Source: Clostridium sp.
GTDB taxonomy: Bacteria > Bacillota > Clostridia > Clostridiales > Clostridiaceae
DNA length: 54,648 nt
Direction of reading: 5' to 3'
Assembly (NCBI GenBank): GCA_031292145.1
Contig: JARLHR010000233.1
Span: 1-54,648 of the forward strand
Shown here: positions 1 to 54,648 of the stretch, one piece after another
How the letters are laid out: the number at the start of each line of letters is the position of its first letter
How positions within the stretch are numbered: the stretch's first letter is position 1
Notes under the pieces: generated by a model
What the model saw: only the letters and a program-made list of their open reading frames with translations
What the model was told of the DNA's origin: nothing
Databases searched by the model: none
Program-made: the position numbers and the translations under genes

Positions 1-152
1 AAGCTCACATTAAGTGCTTTTAGCATCGAAATTTTCAAATGCCTGCTACACACAAATGTATTTGATTTCTAGTGTAGATATATACTCAAAATTTAGTATG
101 AATTCATAATAGTTCAAGTTATAAGTCCAAATCTTAAATTGTATATCTATAT
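1..152. repeat. Right half of a family-1 rod element, cut by the window start
   Basis: Positions 1-95 match 50237-50331 almost base for base, and the segment ends near 152 in a variant of the ATATCTATA terminus. Only the 3' arm (about ACACAAATGTATTTGATTT) is present; its complementary arm must lie before base 1. It is nearly identical to the complete copy at 50076-50387, which points to recent duplication or gene conversion. Confidence 0.75.
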
Positions 153-19453: not shown

Positions 19454-19744
19454 TTATAGATAAACAACGTGTAATCTAGACTTATGCAATAACCTACCGA
19501 AAGAACTGGTAGTCTGTTGCTCGGTTGCTAGAGAATATTGCTGCGGATTTCTAACAGTAGAAGTTGCACCCATTTTAACTTGCTCCAAATGTAAAATTTG
19601 GACAAGTTAAAATGGAACAACTTCTACTGAAGAAATGCCTGCAGCAATATTCTCAATGCAACACTGCGCAAAAGACTACCAGTTCTTTCTAATATGGTAT
19701 ATCTTTCAAAGTATAGATCTAATTCATGGTTTGTTTATCTATAA
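19454..19744. repeat. Complete family-1 rod element inside the tail operon
   Basis: 291 bases bounded by TTATAGATAAACAA and its complement TTGTTTATCTATAA. Nested arms pair from outside in: AAAGAACTGGTAGTC/GACTACCAGTTCTTT, GAGAATATTGCTGC/GCAGCAATATTCTC, CAGTAGAAGTTG/CAACTTCTACTG and CCATTTTAACTTG/CAAGTTAAAATGG. The constant innermost motifs appear as CTTGCTCC and GGACAAG. It lies between the chaperone and tube genes, so it is transcribed in the late mRNA. Confidence 0.85.
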
Positions 19745-19892: not shown

Positions 19893-20188
19893 AAGCGCAT
19901 AACTAAACAAAGAAATTAGATACATGTGTGTGCAATAGGCATTTGAAAATAAGCTGCTAAAAGCACTTAAGTAGAGAACCCAAATCTATGATTTGGTGTG
20001 AATCACTTACTCAGTGAACGAAGTGAGTCGAGTTCCCTCTATTGGTTGTTCCACTTTTGCTTGTCAAACTGAATAGTTGGAACAAGCTAAAGTGGGTGCA
20101 ACCTTTCATTTAGTGCTTTCAGCGAAATTTTCATAGCCCTATGAAACACACATGTATCTAATTTCGGTTAGCTATCGCTTAACTGTAG
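19893..20188. repeat. Family-1 element interrupted by a family-3 insert
   Basis: The outer helix is AAATTAGATACATGTGTGT/ACACACATGTATCTAATTT. The conserved second junction (GGCATTTGAAAATAAGCTG with CAGCGAAATTTTCATAG) and inner GCTTGTC/GGAACAAGC motifs are present. The 5' arm is broken after AGCACTT by a 70-base family-3 block at 19972-20042; the 3' arm is continuous. The right end abuts the stop of the tail-tube gene. Confidence 0.75.
19972..20042. repeat. Family-3 nested element, copy A
   Basis: About 70 bases: ACCCAAATCTATGATTTGGT, then a small CACTTACTCAGTGAACGAAG hairpin and GTGAGTCGAGTTCCCTCT. A close copy lies at 44887-44956. Both sit inside family-1 arms. Confidence 0.65.
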
Positions 20189-20634: not shown

Positions 20635-21756
20635 CTATATATATATTTGAAATTTAATATCTTCAATTGCATCTAAGATAACAGCTTGTCCTCTAAGAAA
20701 TACTTGAGAACCAGTGTTACTTTCTTTTATATCTTGATCCTTCATTGTTCCAATATCTATTCCTTGACTTTTTAAGTAAACTTTTTGTGCATCTAAGTCA
20801 ATTTCAGCAAAGTTTTGTCCTTCAATACTGCTATCAAGTAATCCATCTAATTCTAAGCCTTCAAAATAACCATTAATTGCAGCGATAAGTAAACATTTAT
20901 GATCATAATCATTTGGATATTTACCAATATAACTATCTTCAGCAGTTGTCTTAATATCATCATGAATTAAATCCATAATATCTACGATTTTAATTTTCTT
21001 AAAATCATCACCTTTATTTTCAACTGTAGTAACAAAGCTGTTTACTGCTCTATCAATTTTAACTTTCTTTCCATCATTGAATAAAATTAATTTACCTGCA
21101 TCAACAGCAGCATCTCTATCTTCTTTCTTTAAATGTGGAACATCAATTACTTCTGCAAGTGGTGCAAAGGTAGCACTAATAGTTAATGGTGTTCCTGCCA
21201 GCATTCCTGCAATTCTTGAGCAATATTCTGCTGCAGTATAAGTTTTATTTGCTGTTTGTATTCCATCAGTACAGAAATTAATTATCCCTTCATTATCTGC
21301 TGGGCAATATGGAAGTACTGCTTTAACTTGAATGTCCTTAGTACTTCTTAATTGCTTAATCCAAGTAGCAAAATCTGTTGCTCTTAAAGTAATATTTGCT
21401 TCTGTATCTGCCTTACCATCTGCAGTATAACCAATGCCTGGAACTACTACATAATCCCATTTAATAGTTTCTAAGTAATTTTGAGCTTCTGAATAATCAG
21501 CTGCATCTGCTTTTTCAATATAAGCAATAACTTGTTTTGGTGGATTTTGATATCCTATCATTGCAAGTTGAATTTGTTCTTTACTAAAATCTGATAATCC
21601 TTCTGGAATGTCATCTGTAGTTTCCATTTTTATCGGATTGCTATATGATATCGGCATAGTGTCTTTTAAAATAAGTACTACTACACCTCTTTCTCCTCTT
21701 TTTATTGCAGTGATTCCTGCTTGTTGAAATACAATTTGTACGGATGGTTCTCCCAT
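20635..21756 (-). CDS. xkdK: Contractile tail sheath protein (XkdK family)
   Basis: 373 aa. The N-terminus MGEPSVQIVFQQAGITAIKRGERGVVVLILKD is the family signature of PBSX/clostridial myophage sheaths; the C-terminus (QVFLRGQAVILDAIEDIKFQIYI) is the conserved arm that links neighbouring subunits. Its presence shows the particle is contractile. It is shorter than many phage sheaths, as in PBSX-like and tailocin systems. Confidence 0.9.
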   Translation of the reverse strand: MGEPSVQIVFQQAGITAIKRGERGVVVLILKDTMPISYSNPIKMETTDDIPEGLSDFSKEQIQLAMIGYQNPPKQVIAYIEKADAADYSEAQNYLETIKWDYVVVPGIGYTADGKADTEANITLRATDFATWIKQLRSTKDIQVKAVLPYCPADNEGIINFCTDGIQTANKTYTAAEYCSRIAGMLAGTPLTISATFAPLAEVIDVPHLKKEDRDAAVDAGKLILFNDGKKVKIDRAVNSFVTTVENKGDDFKKIKIVDIMDLIHDDIKTTAEDSYIGKYPNDYDHKCLLIAAINGYFEGLELDGLLDSSIEGQNFAEIDLDAQKVYLKSQGIDIGTMKDQDIKESNTGSQVFLRGQAVILDAIEDIKFQIYI

Positions 21757-22251: not shown

Positions 22252-22537
22252 TATAGATATCCTAATTTGCACTTAAACTTATGTGGTGACCTACCGAAAT
22301 TCTATACATTTTTGTTCCACAGGACTATGAAATTTTCACTGGAAGGTTCTAAGCACAAGGTTGTACCCATTTCTGCATGTTCCAAATATAAAATTTTGAC
22401 AAGCAGTAAATGGTACAACCTTGTACTAAGAACCTTCACAGCTCAATTTCAAATGCCTGTTTCACAAAAATGTATAGAATTTCTAGTATGGAAACACATT
22501 CTAATTATAAATCATACTTATGAATTGGATATCTATA
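22252..22537. repeat. Complete family-1 rod element at the head of the tail operon
   Basis: 286 bases with TATAGATATCCTAATTTG and TATGAATTGGATATCTATA ends. Helices: AAATTCTATACATTTTTGT/ACAAAAATGTATAGAATTT, AAGGTTCTAAG/AGAACCTT-type middle arm, AAGGTTGTAC/GTACAACCTT. Constant motifs: ACCGAAA/TTTCTAGT, CACAGGACTATGAAATTTTC, GCATGTTCC/GACAAGC. The region up to 22600 holds nothing else. Confidence 0.85.
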
Positions 22538-40547: not shown

Positions 40548-40795
40548 TAATATCACACATTTATGCGTATAGCCAAGCGAAATTGAATACATATTTGTTC
40601 CATAGGACTACGAAAATTTCACTGGAAGTTTCTAAATGGGAGGTTGCCCCCATTTCCGCATGCTCCTGAGTCAAGCTCAGGACAAGCAAAAATGGAACAA
40701 CCTCCCATTAAGAAACATCAACAGCTTATTTTCAATGCCTATTCCGCAAATATGTATCCAATTTCTGTATTTCATCTAGACTTAAGACACATGAA
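40548..40795. repeat. Family-1 rod element downstream of the MglB pair
   Basis: Outer helix AAATTGAATACATATTTG/CAAATATGTATCCAATTT, second junction CATAGGACTACGAAAATTTC, arm TCTAAATGGGAGGTTG/CAACCTCCCATTAAGA, and constant inner GCATGCTCC/GACAAGC around GAGTCAAGCTC. Its terminal repeats are decayed. Confidence 0.8.
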
Positions 40796-44865: not shown

Positions 44866-44978
44866 AGCTGTTAAAGGTTCTTAAGCAGTGAGCCCAAATC
44901 TATGATTTGGTGCGAATCGCTTACTCAGCGAACCGCAGTGAGTCGAGTTTCCTCTATAAGTTGTTTATCTATAAAATG
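44866..44978. repeat. Truncated family-1 element carrying family-3 copy B
   Basis: AAATGAGCTGTTAAAGGTTCTTAAG is a family-1 left arm like that at 50505. It is broken by a family-3 block (44887-44956, AGCCCAAATCTATGATTTGG onward) and then runs directly into the right end GTTGTTTATCTATA. The TAG stop of the next gene lies in that end. Confidence 0.7.
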
Positions 44979-45464: not shown

Positions 45465-45779
45465 CTATAGATAAACAAATTTGCAATTTGACTCGTTAGA
45501 TAAACATATTTACACATTTTCTAAAACTAGGTGTATTTCTTCACCAGAAAGGGCAGGTACTCTTTTGTGCAGTGTTACATTAGAGAATAAGTTGCAGGCA
45601 TTTCTTCATCAGAAGTTGTTCCATTTACTGCTTGTCACGAGCTTGCCTCGGGAGCATGCAGAAATGGTGCAACTTCTGATGATAGAAATCCTCAACTTAT
45701 TCTCAGTAACCGAAACAACAGAGTACCTGCCCTTTCGGTAAGCCATCACCTAAGTCCAAACTACAAGTTGTTTATCTAT
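45465..45779. repeat. Complete family-1 rod element
   Basis: 315 bases between TATAGATAAACAA and TTGTTTATCTAT. Helices: AAAGGGCAGGTACTC/GAGTACCTGCCCTTT, GAGAATAAGTTG/CAACTTATTCTC, CAGAAGTTG/CAACTTCTG, CCATTT/AAATGG; inner GCTTGTC/GGAGCATGC around CGAG/CTCG. The copy at the window's right edge (54455 on) is nearly identical. Confidence 0.85.
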
Positions 45780-46131: not shown

Positions 46132-46166
46132 TATTTTCCCTCCAAATTTTCATCTTCTTTTACTAA

Positions 46167-46324
46167 GGCACACTCAAAAAATAACAAGTCAATTTGCCAG
46201 ACTATTTTCCATCATACTGCGTCGTCAAATTGCCCTAATAGGCCCGCTATGAGGCCAATTTATCTCCTTGTCTGATGAAAAATATCCATGGCAACTTTGG
46301 ACTCGTTATTTATTTTCGTGTGCC
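46167..46324. mobile_element. Family-2 element (158 bp), second full copy
   Basis: Ends GGCACACTCAAAAAATAAC and GTTATTTATTTTCGTGTGCC, flanked by TAA on both sides. It has the same core as the copy at 37789 (CATACTGCGTC, CCTAATAGGCCCGCTATGAGGC, TCCTTGTCTGA), but helices of different sequence: TTTTCCATCA/TGATGAAAAA and CAAATTG/CAATTT. Confidence 0.8.
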
Positions 46325-46639: not shown

Positions 46640-46866
46640 CACCAAACTTAAGTGAATTACTACACCAGAAATCAGTAACATGTTGTGTGCAGTGTTTCAT
46701 TAGGAGTTTAGATGGTGTGATTCTTGAACAGAAGTTGTTCCAAAAAGCTTGTTCAAAAGCTTGTCTTTGAAGCAAGCTTTTTGGGTGCAACTTCTGTTCT
46801 TAGAATCACCCATCTAAATTCCTTAGAAACCGAAATACAACATGTTACTGATTTCGGTAAGTCATC
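46640..46866. repeat. Family-1 rod element between DUF1653 and DnaC-like genes
   Basis: Outer helix AAATCAGTAACATGTTGT/ACAACATGTTACTGATTT, second arm TTTAGATGG/CCATCTAAA, third GAACAGAAGTTG/CAACTTCTGTTC, inner CCAAAAAGCTTG/CAAGCTTTTTGG. Constant ACCAGAAA and TTTCGGTAAGTCATCAC flanks; terminal repeats decayed. The DnaC-like gene's TGA lies in its right flank. The rest of 46562-46864 holds nothing. Confidence 0.8.
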
Positions 46867-47647
46867 ACCTTAACCTATAATTATTTTCTGTACCCTCAAT
46901 TTCAACTATAAACTCCTTAGACATTTCATATATCCTGCTGCCTATTGCTTCATCAAAACTCAATAACTTTTCAAGTGTATACTCTGTGGACACTATTACT
47001 GGCAGGTGATTAAGGTATCTATAATTTATAAGTTCAAATATTATGTTAATATCTGAGGCATTAATTTTCCCCTTGTACAAATCGTCAATTAATAAGACTT
47101 CACAAGTTTGGTACCTGCCTAAAGTTCTCTTATAATATTCTTCATCTATCATATTTTGTTTAAGACTTGTAATCACATCTCTATATGGCATATAGACAAC
47201 TCTTATATCCTTCTTCAAAAAATTATTTGCAAGAGCTAAGGCAATATGAGTTTTACCCGACCCTGGATTACCACAAAGTAAAATTGAATTTTTTCTCTCA
47301 CCTCTTATATTAGAGAAGGTTTTATAATAATTTATTGCTTTAGCTTTCATTTCCTTAGACTTACTTGACCATTCTTCAAAATTATTAAAAGCCTTATTCA
47401 AATCATCTGTATTAATCCCACTATTTTTCCATAATCTCTTTACCTTTTCAGTCTCCAAACATTTGCAAGGTGTCATTAATGGTTGTGCATTAACCTGCAT
47501 TTTAATAATATATCCCACATCTTTACATAATTCACATTTAAAATGGTTCCTCCCCTGCATACACCCTTGCTTCAGTTGGCTCCCATTTTGGGATTTTAAC
47601 ATTGAATTTCTTTTCACTTGCTCCATTATTCGCTGCAATGCTTCCAT
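46865..47647 (-). CDS. DnaC-like helicase loader ATPase
   Basis: About 260 aa. A Cys cluster (CELCKDVGY...PCKCLE) near residues 35-60 may bind zinc. The AAA+ core has Walker A CGNPGSGKTHIAL and Walker B EVLLIDDLYKG. It should load replicative helicase at a phage origin. The start at 47647 follows GGAGATAAAT and lies inside the upstream gene (about 110 bases overlap in another frame); no later start has a better site. Confidence 0.85.
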   Translation of the reverse strand: MEALQRIMEQVKRNSMLKSQNGSQLKQGCMQGRNHFKCELCKDVGYIIKMQVNAQPLMTPCKCLETEKVKRLWKNSGINTDDLNKAFNNFEEWSSKSKEMKAKAINYYKTFSNIRGERKNSILLCGNPGSGKTHIALALANNFLKKDIRVVYMPYRDVITSLKQNMIDEEYYKRTLGRYQTCEVLLIDDLYKGKINASDINIIFELINYRYLNHLPVIVSTEYTLEKLLSFDEAIGSRIYEMSKEFIVEIEGTENNYRLR

Positions 47648-48437
47648 ATTTATCTCCATTATTATTCATAGTTTTAGGCATTTCTTTGTTATACTCATAA
47701 AATCCATTAGGTATTTTTTTGCTATAATCTTTAAATCCAAAGGCTTTGTTATGCTCCTCGACCTTAAATATTCCCTGCCAGCAATTTTGAATACTATTCT
47801 CCAAAATCTTAATCTGCATCTCTTCATCCTTAGATAAGGTTATCAATTTGTTAAGCATTAATTCCAAAGCCCTGTCCGTCATAGGCTTTTTAATTTCATT
47901 TCTCATTTTTATAAAATCTATTATGGTTTTTATAAGCAGCTTATTTTGCGTAAATTCATATATATATTTATACTTCTTATCATTCTTATCATTCTTATCA
48001 TTCTTATCATTCTTATCATTCTTGTTAGTGGTTAGCTCTTGGTTAAGGCATGGTGACTCCTTGGTTACTCCTTGGTTACTAACACAGTTATCTACAGTTT
48101 TCTCACCCTGGTAAATCCCCCAATTCACTATACTTATAAGCAATCCTGTCTTTGTCGCTTCGTAGGTTAGAAAATCATACTTTTTAAATTTAGTTAATGC
48201 AGACCTAACATTTTGCCTAGAAATTCCTGAGCCTGCCTTTTCCATTATTGAATTAGCACTAGTAACAAATTCACCGGGTTGTGCTTTAAATTGTTTCCCC
48301 TTCCATTCCCACTCTTTACCTTCATGATTAGCCATGCCTATAAGGGTAATCATAATAACTTTATGCTCTGGCGTTGAATTTAGCCAAATAGCTTTTTTAA
48401 ATAGACCTCTATGAATTTTAAACCAGCCTTCCTTCAT
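47538..48437 (-). CDS. Phage replisome organiser (DnaD-like)
   Basis: 299 aa. The N-terminal winged helix GWFKIHRGLFKKAIWLNSTPEHKVIMITLIGMANHE is the phage replisome-organiser domain; ISRQNVRSALTKFKKYDFLT follows. A linker of five KND repeats (about 138-153) is encoded by a 9-base tandem repeat. The C-terminal DnaD-like helical part ends EPTEARVYAGEEPF. It opens the origin and recruits the DnaC-like loader encoded next. GGAGGTGTTGATTAG precedes the ATG. Confidence 0.85.
   Translation of the reverse strand: MKEGWFKIHRGLFKKAIWLNSTPEHKVIMITLIGMANHEGKEWEWKGKQFKAQPGEFVTSANSIMEKAGSGISRQNVRSALTKFKKYDFLTYEATKTGLLISIVNWGIYQGEKTVDNCVSNQGVTKESPCLNQELTTNKNDKNDKNDKNDKNDKKYKYIYEFTQNKLLIKTIIDFIKMRNEIKKPMTDRALELMLNKLITLSKDEEMQIKILENSIQNCWQGIFKVEEHNKAFGFKDYSKKIPNGFYEYNKEMPKTMNNNGDKYGSIAANNGASEKKFNVKIPKWEPTEARVYAGEEPF
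47974..48023. repeat. 9-bp tandem repeat in the replisome organiser gene
   Basis: CTTATCATT repeated five times plus a partial unit; on the coding strand each unit reads Asn-Asp-Lys. Copy changes keep frame and alter linker length only. Confidence 0.85.
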
Positions 48438-48709: not shown

Positions 48710-49453
48710 TTAGCAGCTTTTTATATTTTCCCTATTAGCACAGTTTATTTCATCTAGAAAAATAGTTGGTGCTTTATATTCTTCAATTATTTTTTTAGCA
48801 ATTTCAAATTGAGCTCTTTTTATAGCTTCATATCTTTCCACACCAAACTCCCTTTTAAGCTGACGCTGAATATCTGCATAAACCTTCCCCCTTAAAGAAT
48901 TATCATTATAAGCTGGGCTTTTATAGCCACCAAGTGCTTTAATTCCAGCCCTTCTAACTAAGCGTTGAAGCTCCCTGCATTCAATGTTGTAAAGTGGTGC
49001 ATTATTTTTTAACTCCTCTATATTCACCTTTATATCGTTAATCTTCATATTTTGCTCTTTCATCACTATAAGCTGCAATTCCAACTGCTCTGCTCTAGAC
49101 AATAATTTTAACCTTTGTTTAATTTCTGTTTCCATTTCTACAAATCTCTTTACATACTTAGCTGAAAACACTATCCCTTTTTCCCCTTGAAATTTATTGG
49201 CTATAAAATCACACCCCATCTTAGTAAATAAATAATATCTATTTTCCTTGCCACTGTTATCTTTGTAAGAACTTAATATGAAATAATCACTGACCACGAA
49301 GTCGTGGGCAGTCAAAACTGGTATTATACCTTTTGTTCTCCCATCCCTTGTCCCCTCCAGCTTTTCAAGTATTTTGTAATGCTCCATATTAATCATTTCT
49401 GCAATTTCCCTGCTATCAATTGTGTTATTAATAGCTTGTACTGTTTTATTCAT
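48710..49453 (-). CDS. Rha-type antirepressor with ORF6C domain
   Basis: 247 aa. The N-terminal 100 residues are a Rha-like regulator domain (DSREIAEMINMEHYKILEKLEG, SSYKDNSGKENRYYLFTKMGCDFIANKFQGEKG); a coiled coil follows and the last 110 residues are an ORF6C domain (RELQRLVRRAGIKALGGYKSPAYND.. LRGKVYADIQRQLKREFGVERYEAI). Such proteins counter the phage repressor. The hairpin at 49288-49312 forms codons for LTAHDFVVSD in the N-domain. Confidence 0.85.
   Translation of the reverse strand: MNKTVQAINNTIDSREIAEMINMEHYKILEKLEGTRDGRTKGIIPVLTAHDFVVSDYFILSSYKDNSGKENRYYLFTKMGCDFIANKFQGEKGIVFSAKYVKRFVEMETEIKQRLKLLSRAEQLELQLIVMKEQNMKINDIKVNIEELKNNAPLYNIECRELQRLVRRAGIKALGGYKSPAYNDNSLRGKVYADIQRQLKREFGVERYEAIKRAQFEIAKKIIEEYKAPTIFLDEINCANRENIKSC
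49288..49312. repeat. CCACGA-type hairpin, copy 5, inside the Rha coding sequence
   Basis: CACTGaCCACGAagTCGTGGgCAGT. The same hairpin is intergenic at its other four sites. Here it is translated and keeps the frame. Confidence 0.75.
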
Positions 49454-50075: not shown

Positions 50076-50387
50076 TATAGATAAGCAAAGCATATTCTCG
50101 ACTTATGCGATAATCTACCGAAATCAAATACATTTGTGTTACACAGGACTATGAAAATTTCGCTGAAAGCACTAAATGGGAGCTTGCATCAACATTAGCT
50201 TGCTCCCACTTTCAGTGTGACAAGCTAATGTTAAACAAGCTCCCATTAAGTGCTTTTAGCATCGAAATTTTCAAATGCCTGCTACACACAAATGTATTTG
50301 ATTTCTAGTGTAGATATGCATTTAAGGTTTGGTAAATATGTATTGATATTTCAGTAATAAGTCTAAGTTTAAACTTGTTTATCTATA
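50076..50387. repeat. Complete family-1 rod element (type copy)
   Basis: 312 bases, TATAGATAAGCAAAG to CTTGTTTATCTATA. Helices: AAATCAAATACATTTGTGT/ACACAAATGTATTTGATTT; GCTGAAAGCACTAA/TTAAGTGCTTTTAGC; TGGGAGCTTG/CAAGCTCCCA; CAACATTAGCTTG/CTAATGTT. Constant motifs: ACCGAAA/TTTCTAGT, CACAGGACTATGAAAATTTC/GAAATTTTCAAATGCCTG, GCTTGCTCC/GACAAGC. Confidence 0.9.
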
Positions 50388-50690
50388 TAGATATCCAATT
50401 CAACAATTTGACTTATTAGGTAAAAATATTTACATACTTGCTAAATCTTAAGTGGGCCTCTTCACTAGAAATAATAAATATTTTTATGTAGAAAGTATTT
50501 GAAAATGAGCTGCTTAAGGTTCTTAGTTGTAAGTTGTTCCAATTTAGCTTGTCACTCTGAAAGCGGGAGCATGCTGAATTGGGCACAACTTGCAACTTAG
50601 AACCTACAGCGATATTTTCATAGTCTTTCGTAATAAAAATATTTATTATTTCGGTAAGTTACCACATTAAATCTAGTAAATACATATATA
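50384..50690. repeat. Complete family-1 element, abutting the previous copy
   Basis: It begins TATAGATATCCAATTC at the last bases of the previous element. Outer helix AAATAATAAATATTTTTA/TAAAAATATTTATTATTT, arm AGGTTCTTAGTTGTAAGTTG/CAACTTGCAACTTAGAACCT, inner CCAATTTAGCTTGTC and GAGCATGCTGAATTGG. It is in the opposite orientation, judged by the asymmetric inner motif. The right end runs close to the promoter of the sigma gene. Confidence 0.85.
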
Positions 50691-54454: not shown

Positions 54455-54648
54455 TTATAGATATCCAATTTAAGAATTATACTTATGCCTTGAAATAATA
54501 CTATATCAGAAAGGACAGGTACTCTTTTGTGCAGTGTTACATTAGAGAATAAGTTGCAGGCATTTCTTCATCAGAAGTTGTTCCATTTTTGCTTGTCACG
54601 AGCTTGCCTCGGGAGCATGCTGAAATGGTGCAACTTCTGATGTTAGAA
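54455..54648. repeat. Family-1 rod element cut by the window end
   Basis: It starts TATAGATATCCAATTT and from about 54510 is almost identical to 45530-45690, including AGGTACTCTTTTGTGCAGTG and GAGCATGC. Only the left arm and part of the loop are in the window. The terminal repeat belongs to the GATATCC type, although the interior matches a copy with the GATAAAC type. Confidence 0.8.

Follow-up and report, generated by a model that had tools for sequence, protein, structure and literature searches.

Bacterial MITE-like repeats such as RUP of Streptococcus pneumoniae, Correia/NEMIS of Neisseria, and ERIC have been reviewed (PMC2229807). The elements studied here, called rods below, resemble these repeats in being small, intergenic, and present in many copies and in having inverted ends with TA and a long stem-loop; however, rods are mostly 274–325 bp long, whereas RUP, Correia/NEMIS, and ERIC are about 100–200 bp (PMC2229807). 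Conserved joints, genus-wide covariation of the arms, and sense polarity are features of the rods that are not met in the accessible part of that review (PMC2229807). We file the rods as a variant of the MITE-like bacterial repeats, and a search of the literature by title found no title describing these elements. bcr1 of Bacillus cereus, REP/RAYT, and integron attC sites are structured mobile or recombination sites whose fold is kept while their sequence varies. The rods differ from these in their ends, size, and polarity relative to genes and in having no intact Y1 transposase.

Paired changes in the two arms of a stem can also arise by copying. Template switching produces such changes in RNA genes (PMC8794818) and is a possible mechanism for the concerted palindrome arms in the mitochondria of Nematomorpha (PMC6649704). 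The rods are like these cases in that their stem arms probably change together by copying; those cases concern RNA genes and mitochondrial genes (PMC8794818, PMC6649704), whereas the rods are dispersed mobile elements of which a single genome contains many copies in parallel.

The window, a stretch of 54,648 nucleotides from a Clostridium sp. assembly (GCA_031292145.1, contig JARLHR010000233.1), contains eight full rods and two pieces cut by its edges (Table 1). These were located with a covariance model (R1) built from an alignment (A1) of 36 diverse, oriented rod cores. A1 includes the window copies at 40576, 46664, 50117, and 50464 and excludes the other four; therefore, the R1 matches to the included copies arise by construction. 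All eight rods listed in the original prediction were found by R1, and the common order of motifs ascribed to them held after re-orientation but not as read, since four of these copies are in the minus orientation. The fold of the reference copy (50076–50387) had an energy of −133 kcal/mol (z = −14.66), and that of the neighboring element (50386–50672) had a z of −9.73. The reference element and this inverted neighbor have the TA at their junction in common. In four window elements, the longest stop-free stretch was 50–95 aa, lengths that carry no chance baseline. The copy listed at 19893 (19907–20168 in Table 1) departs from the others by an extra hairpin of ~67 bp; a similar palindrome lies near position 44940 of the window, and tip inserts were also present in rods of the genomes G023, G030, and G032.

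Table 1 Rods and related features in the window, and IS110-family genes inserted in rods of genome G021.
Feature	Position	Strand	Evidence
Reference element, complete rod with both ends	50076–50387	+	Sequence; best BLAST and model match of the genome
Left inverted end TATAGATAAGCAA of reference element	50076–50088	+	Inverted repeat I6; recurs in other copies
Core of reference rod, 193 bp	50117–50309	+	R1, 190.3 bits; fold
Right inverted end TTGTTTATCTATA of reference element	50375–50387	+	Inverted repeat I6; pattern match
Second element, inverted, adjoining the reference; outer end decayed	50386–50672 (core 50464–50655)	−	Sequence; R1, 156.6 bits
Complete element	19455–19743 (core 19496–19693)	+	R1, 206.5 bits
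Rod core with extra hairpin of ~67 bp	19907–20168	−	R1, 81.1 bits
Complete element	22252–22537 (core 22293–22487)	+	R1, 167.3 bits
Rod core, no ends recognized	40576–40769	+	R1, 158.5 bits
Complete element	45466–45779 (core 45543–45739)	−	R1, 185.4 bits
Rod core, probably an old insertion common to genome G027 (other rod type there)	46664–46858	−	R1, 155.2 bits
Rod truncated by window edge	54505–54648	−	R1 match
Rod truncated by window edge	1–73	+	R1 match
IS110-family gene insert, genome G021	L174, 1047–2246	−	
IS110-family gene insert, genome G021	L175, 1643–2842	+	

The plan of the element is a pair of ends, TATAGATA...TATCTATA, flanking an imperfect palindrome of ~195 bp. Short terminal inverted repeats, as in MITEs, were present in 47 copies, in which both ends were recognized by a loose pattern. 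The length was 274–325 bp in 38 of these 47, and the full range was 237–390 bp, some of the longest values reflecting the pattern running on. The many dispersed copies that characterize MITEs were likewise found when copies were collected with the covariance model, as had been suggested: all 150 scored candidates (of 5613) in the window's genome matched R1, so that this genome has at least 150 rods, a minimum because the window rods 19907 and 46664 were outside the scored set. With stricter filters, rods were detected in 11 of 59 genomes, including the window's own, all of which belong to Clostridium. A search of a named genome collection with the joint pattern gave 10 stretches, eight of which came from C. 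beijerinckii HUN142, Clostridium sp. LS, and C. chromiireducens and were confirmed as rods by the model; the other two, in Halopseudomonas and Arthrobacter, contained no rod according to the model. The plasmid and phage collections searched with the reference element yielded no match.

Aberrant forms of the rods were also observed. L057 (412–560) and L066 (544–708) are short derivatives that kept both end regions and lost most or all of the rod. L039 (742–934) is a chimeric rod whose joints are lost because its right half resembles the reverse complement of the left half of another type. In genome G021, alternative ends, ATAAATAAGGGACGTA, occurred at 41 and 43 sites versus 14 and 23 in the reversed control. 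They enclose composites of two rods of different types (e.g., L086, L097, and L107), in which a plus rod faces a minus rod ~350–420 bp apart; rods are thus not tied to a single set of ends. In two G021 composites, one and the same gene, encoding an IS110-family transposase of 399 aa (PF01548, PF02371), lies in a rod arm (Table 1). This IS110-family element seems to target rods for its insertion and was set aside as their mobilizer, since it sits in the rod arm as an insert.

The rods are mobile, with sites differing between species. Four relatives were searched for the sequences flanking 11 rods, and both flanks were placed at six sites (L067, L063, L061, L055, L049, and L033), giving 18 stretches from one to four relatives; when these 18 stretches were aligned to the six occupied sites, none contained a rod match. 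A comparison for precise presence or absence had been suggested in the original prediction. Among the sites compared, none was a clean empty rod site flanked by a target duplication; at the one examined in detail, the window copy at 45466–45779 is absent from G027, where a remnant of the right end persists. At the site of 46664–46858, the tail of a gene matches the left end of the element, ending in GTENNYRLR-stop here and GTENNFRLR-stop in G027, and the rods of the two species are 63% identical and nearest to different subfamilies. Judged from these sequences, the site would most simply be an old shared insertion, and we read it as one in which recombination replaced the rod body; alternatively, a second rod may have inserted there independently. 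L037 and L047 were rejected as further sites of replacement; a G030 rod lies nearby in the same direction, and the junctions are different or unclear.

Candidate mobilizers were sought in the window's genome, which is an incomplete assembly. No match to a DDE_3 transposase was found in it. Y1_Tnp gave one broken match, a 53-aa frame with stops, and no intact gene in the genome; the associated Y1 transposase of REP/RAYT systems was thus not found, and the broken Y1_Tnp locus had no rod match. Among 100 of the 223 places that matched the end pattern, no facing ends 0.5–5 kb apart were seen by eye.

To describe the placement of rods, we took open stretches, not annotated genes, as genes. Each core was read in its own direction. 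Enough flank was available for 143 of 161 copies, and the left-side gene pointed toward the rod in 114, away from it in 18, and was uncalled in 11. A second cut, in which G022/G005 were left out, gave 118 toward, 18 away, and 13 uncalled (149 of 169). In the 118 toward-pointing cases, the distance from the stop codon to the core had a median of 36 nt and was at most 62 nt in 90%, stops within the element's own left end being counted as stops. Right-side genes were unbiased (49 toward and 53 away). In tandem contexts, where the orientation of the rod is informative, 41 rods lay with the gene direction and 7 against it (p = 6e-7). The toward-to-away ratio was 54:13 for copies with a close sister (≥93%) and 60:5 for the remainder (p = 0.07). 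Sense placement directly behind stop codons in most of the sampled copies is new here. This polarity would stem from insertion choice, selection against other placements, or both.

A second repeat family of the window's genome served as a control and showed a slight lean of its own. In 29 of 30 fetched copies of this family, the corresponding counts were 19:8 on the left, 14:12 on the right, and 11:7 in tandem contexts; the contrast between the rods and this family reached only p = 0.045–0.05. In the window itself, part of which is prophage-like, four of the eight rods followed the rule. Close pairs were taken from a hand-made list, covering loci of the window's own genome and the window, of full-length matches whose starts are no more than 500 bp apart; weaker partial matches were left out. 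In 11 of 12 such pairs, a plus rod is followed by a minus rod, so that the two are facing. Among the pairs with partial matches, L018 was facing, and L035, L056, and L057 ran in the same direction. Facing neighbors are expected if each rod follows its own gene; the reference pair (50076–50387 and 50386–50672), which lies between diverging genes, is off this pattern. The replication strand was disfavored by eye as the cause of the polarity because close pairs face each other, with both strands at one site. In several copies (L009, L058, L143, and L149), a terminator-like hairpin was seen by eye 3′ of the element. From the sense polarity, the plus strand of most rods is predicted to be transcribed as an mRNA tail. 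The sense bias would imply one of two things: the mobile element recognizes the ends of genes, or an additional mRNA tail is widespread in these clostridia.

We collected 179 cores and aligned 161 of them, leaving out 10 from G022/G005, two that were aberrant, and six of unusual length. The helices had been described as unrelated from copy to copy. This was overstated, as they are graded variants: the pairwise identity of 81 subfamily representatives had a median of 0.56 and a minimum of 0.42. The internal loops had been described as constant, which holds for the joints but not for loop columns as a class; only 5 of 25 loop columns were at least 95% identical (30 of 133 in stems), and mean identity was 0.73 in loops and 0.75 in stems. 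The conserved part is the joints (GAAA/TTTC, CTAA/AAG, TTG..CC/GG..CAA, and GCTTGCTCC/GGACAAGC), some loop bases and closing pairs.

The covariation score of A1 was 0.508, compared with 0.167 for shuffled and at most 0.100 for slid versions, and 42 of 57 pairs varied on both sides. In the A1 consensus structure, 94.7% of cells were paired versus 75.3% in shuffled and at most 44.0% in slid versions, a comparison in which the structure, being derived from A1 itself, has an advantage over the slid versions. The covariation across rods is thus strong and far above both controls, and the predicted retention of pairing across copies was confirmed. The original prediction would have been abandoned if the helices were ordinary variants of one sequence with no excess covariation; they are indeed graded variants of one another, yet the excess is present. 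It was also proposed that the variable helices act as copy-specific addresses. Nothing observed here speaks for this idea, and the same helix types recur in many copies at different sites, which makes it hardly credible.

Compensatory covariation is a standard sign of functional RNA. If the rods were structured RNAs in 3′ untranslated tails whose pairing is kept by ordinary compensatory mutations, their sense placement behind genes, the conserved joints, and the strong covariation would all fit. A selected RNA tolerates G-U but not A-C, so that an excess of G-U mismatches is expected. In the rods, both mismatches were rare, and the sense strand showed no G-U excess over A-C. The 12 subfamily consensus sequences, which represent 79 copies in clusters of at least three among 81 clusters, had 5 G-U, 8 A-C, and 933 Watson-Crick pairs. 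Single changes of these 79 copies relative to their own consensus comprised 49 G-U, 70 A-C, and 78 others, and all cores together had 92 G-U versus 152 A-C, or 58 versus 104 without recurrent mismatches. We did not use the A-C surplus (104 vs 58) to tell the strand, since related copies inflate it; among unique single changes, the counts were 53 and 46. A first wobble test on single folds, which gave a minus-strand G-U surplus of 3.87 versus 1.51 per copy, was discarded because fixed and recent mismatches were pooled in it; tests that took position into account gave no clear strand.

Double changes were counted in the same 79 copies against their subfamily consensus (6134 pair observations). 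There were 48, of which 47 were Watson-Crick, versus 3.5 expected from the stem rate, counts that are not independent events because the copies are related. With the loop rate as a neutral yardstick, 31 doubles were expected, about 10 of them complementary. Among the 39 unique double changes, 38 were Watson-Crick, and 19 involved transversions, which have no wobble intermediate. Together with the near-equality of G-U and A-C, the excess of Watson-Crick doubles points to DNA arm-to-arm copying rather than RNA compensation; the template switching put forward in the original prediction is thereby supported, and arm-to-arm copying of DNA is the likely source of the rod covariation. The lengths of the two sides of the outer helix changed together only weakly (correlation 0.37; 92 of 173 equal), and this was set aside as support.

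Some selection appears to act as well. Among close copies, stems had 0.024 and loops 0.072 changes per site, loops thus changing three times faster, which suggests some selection on pairing and also suits an RNA. The conserved joints and the polarity relative to genes likewise indicate that some selection is still at work. The claim that the structure is selected therefore stands in part: pure RNA selection does not fit the lack of a G-U excess, and the joints and polarity speak for selection of some kind. The numbers of complementary and transversional doubles also tell against pairing kept by ordinary compensatory mutations in an RNA. In addition, no Rfam family reached its gathering score in the window, and six further loci compared with Rfam by E-value gave sub-threshold microRNA look-alikes only. 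Taken together, we regard a functional RNA of this kind as unlikely.

Single-strand hairpins are substrates in attC sites and IS200/IS605 ends. If a transposase or recombinase acted on such a DNA hairpin and read its joints, selection on the hairpin might also keep the arms matched, and the strict Watson-Crick pairing without strand preference, the conserved joints, and the polarity agree with this. Selection alone, however, does not make double changes more numerous among close copies. Moreover, the genome is without an intact Y1_Tnp gene, and the rods have inverted ends and a TA at their junctions, unlike attC or IS200/IS605. This origin of the matched arms is quite unlikely. Ordinary descent with recombination could mimic covariation if matched arms were inherited and tips or rods were exchanged between joints. 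Type-A copies do have common outer helices combined with several versions of the tip, and at the 46664 site, the rods of the two species compared belong to different types. On the other hand, descent makes no new matched pairs, and double changes in the outer helix with a mostly unchanged interior are incompatible with a single tract through the tip; we hold descent and exchange to be a very unlikely explanation.

We consider it fairly probable, taking the whole reading together, that the rods are non-autonomous MITE-like foldback repeats of Clostridium with arm copying, selection on the joints, and sense polarity. One arm would mutate, and in a hairpin formed in DNA replication or repair, the mutated arm would template the other arm by template switching, whereby both arms would change in step and remain Watson-Crick paired. 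The joints would persist because something handling the element needs them, and copies with copied-over joints would leave no offspring. Recombination between copies would additionally swap tips or whole rods. It is possible, though doubtful, that the rods are gene-end elements that spread around or behind the stop codon in sense and ride as a long mRNA tail, with stems renewed by arm copying and fixed joints read by a partner, possibly with an RNA or single-strand intermediate.

Because the strong covariation of the rods looks made by DNA, covariation tests applied to palindromic mobile repeats could be misleading. The wobble test (G-U vs A-C) helps to tell DNA-made from RNA-selected covariation. 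Since one genome contains well over a hundred of them in parallel, the rods are a natural experiment on the joint evolution of palindrome arms.

Prophage-like genes were observed near window rods (20638–21756, 46868–47659, and 48713–49453), their products being a tail sheath, an IstB/DnaC-like ATPase, and an Rha/ORF6C regulator. The second repeat family, which served as the placement control, is represented in the window at 46166–46324 and has ends of the AGGCACACTCAAAAAAATAA type. This copy has TAA on both sides, and G027 has a precise empty site for it. The window's genome contains at least 40 copies of the family (40 scored of 395 candidates), and many were found in G030.
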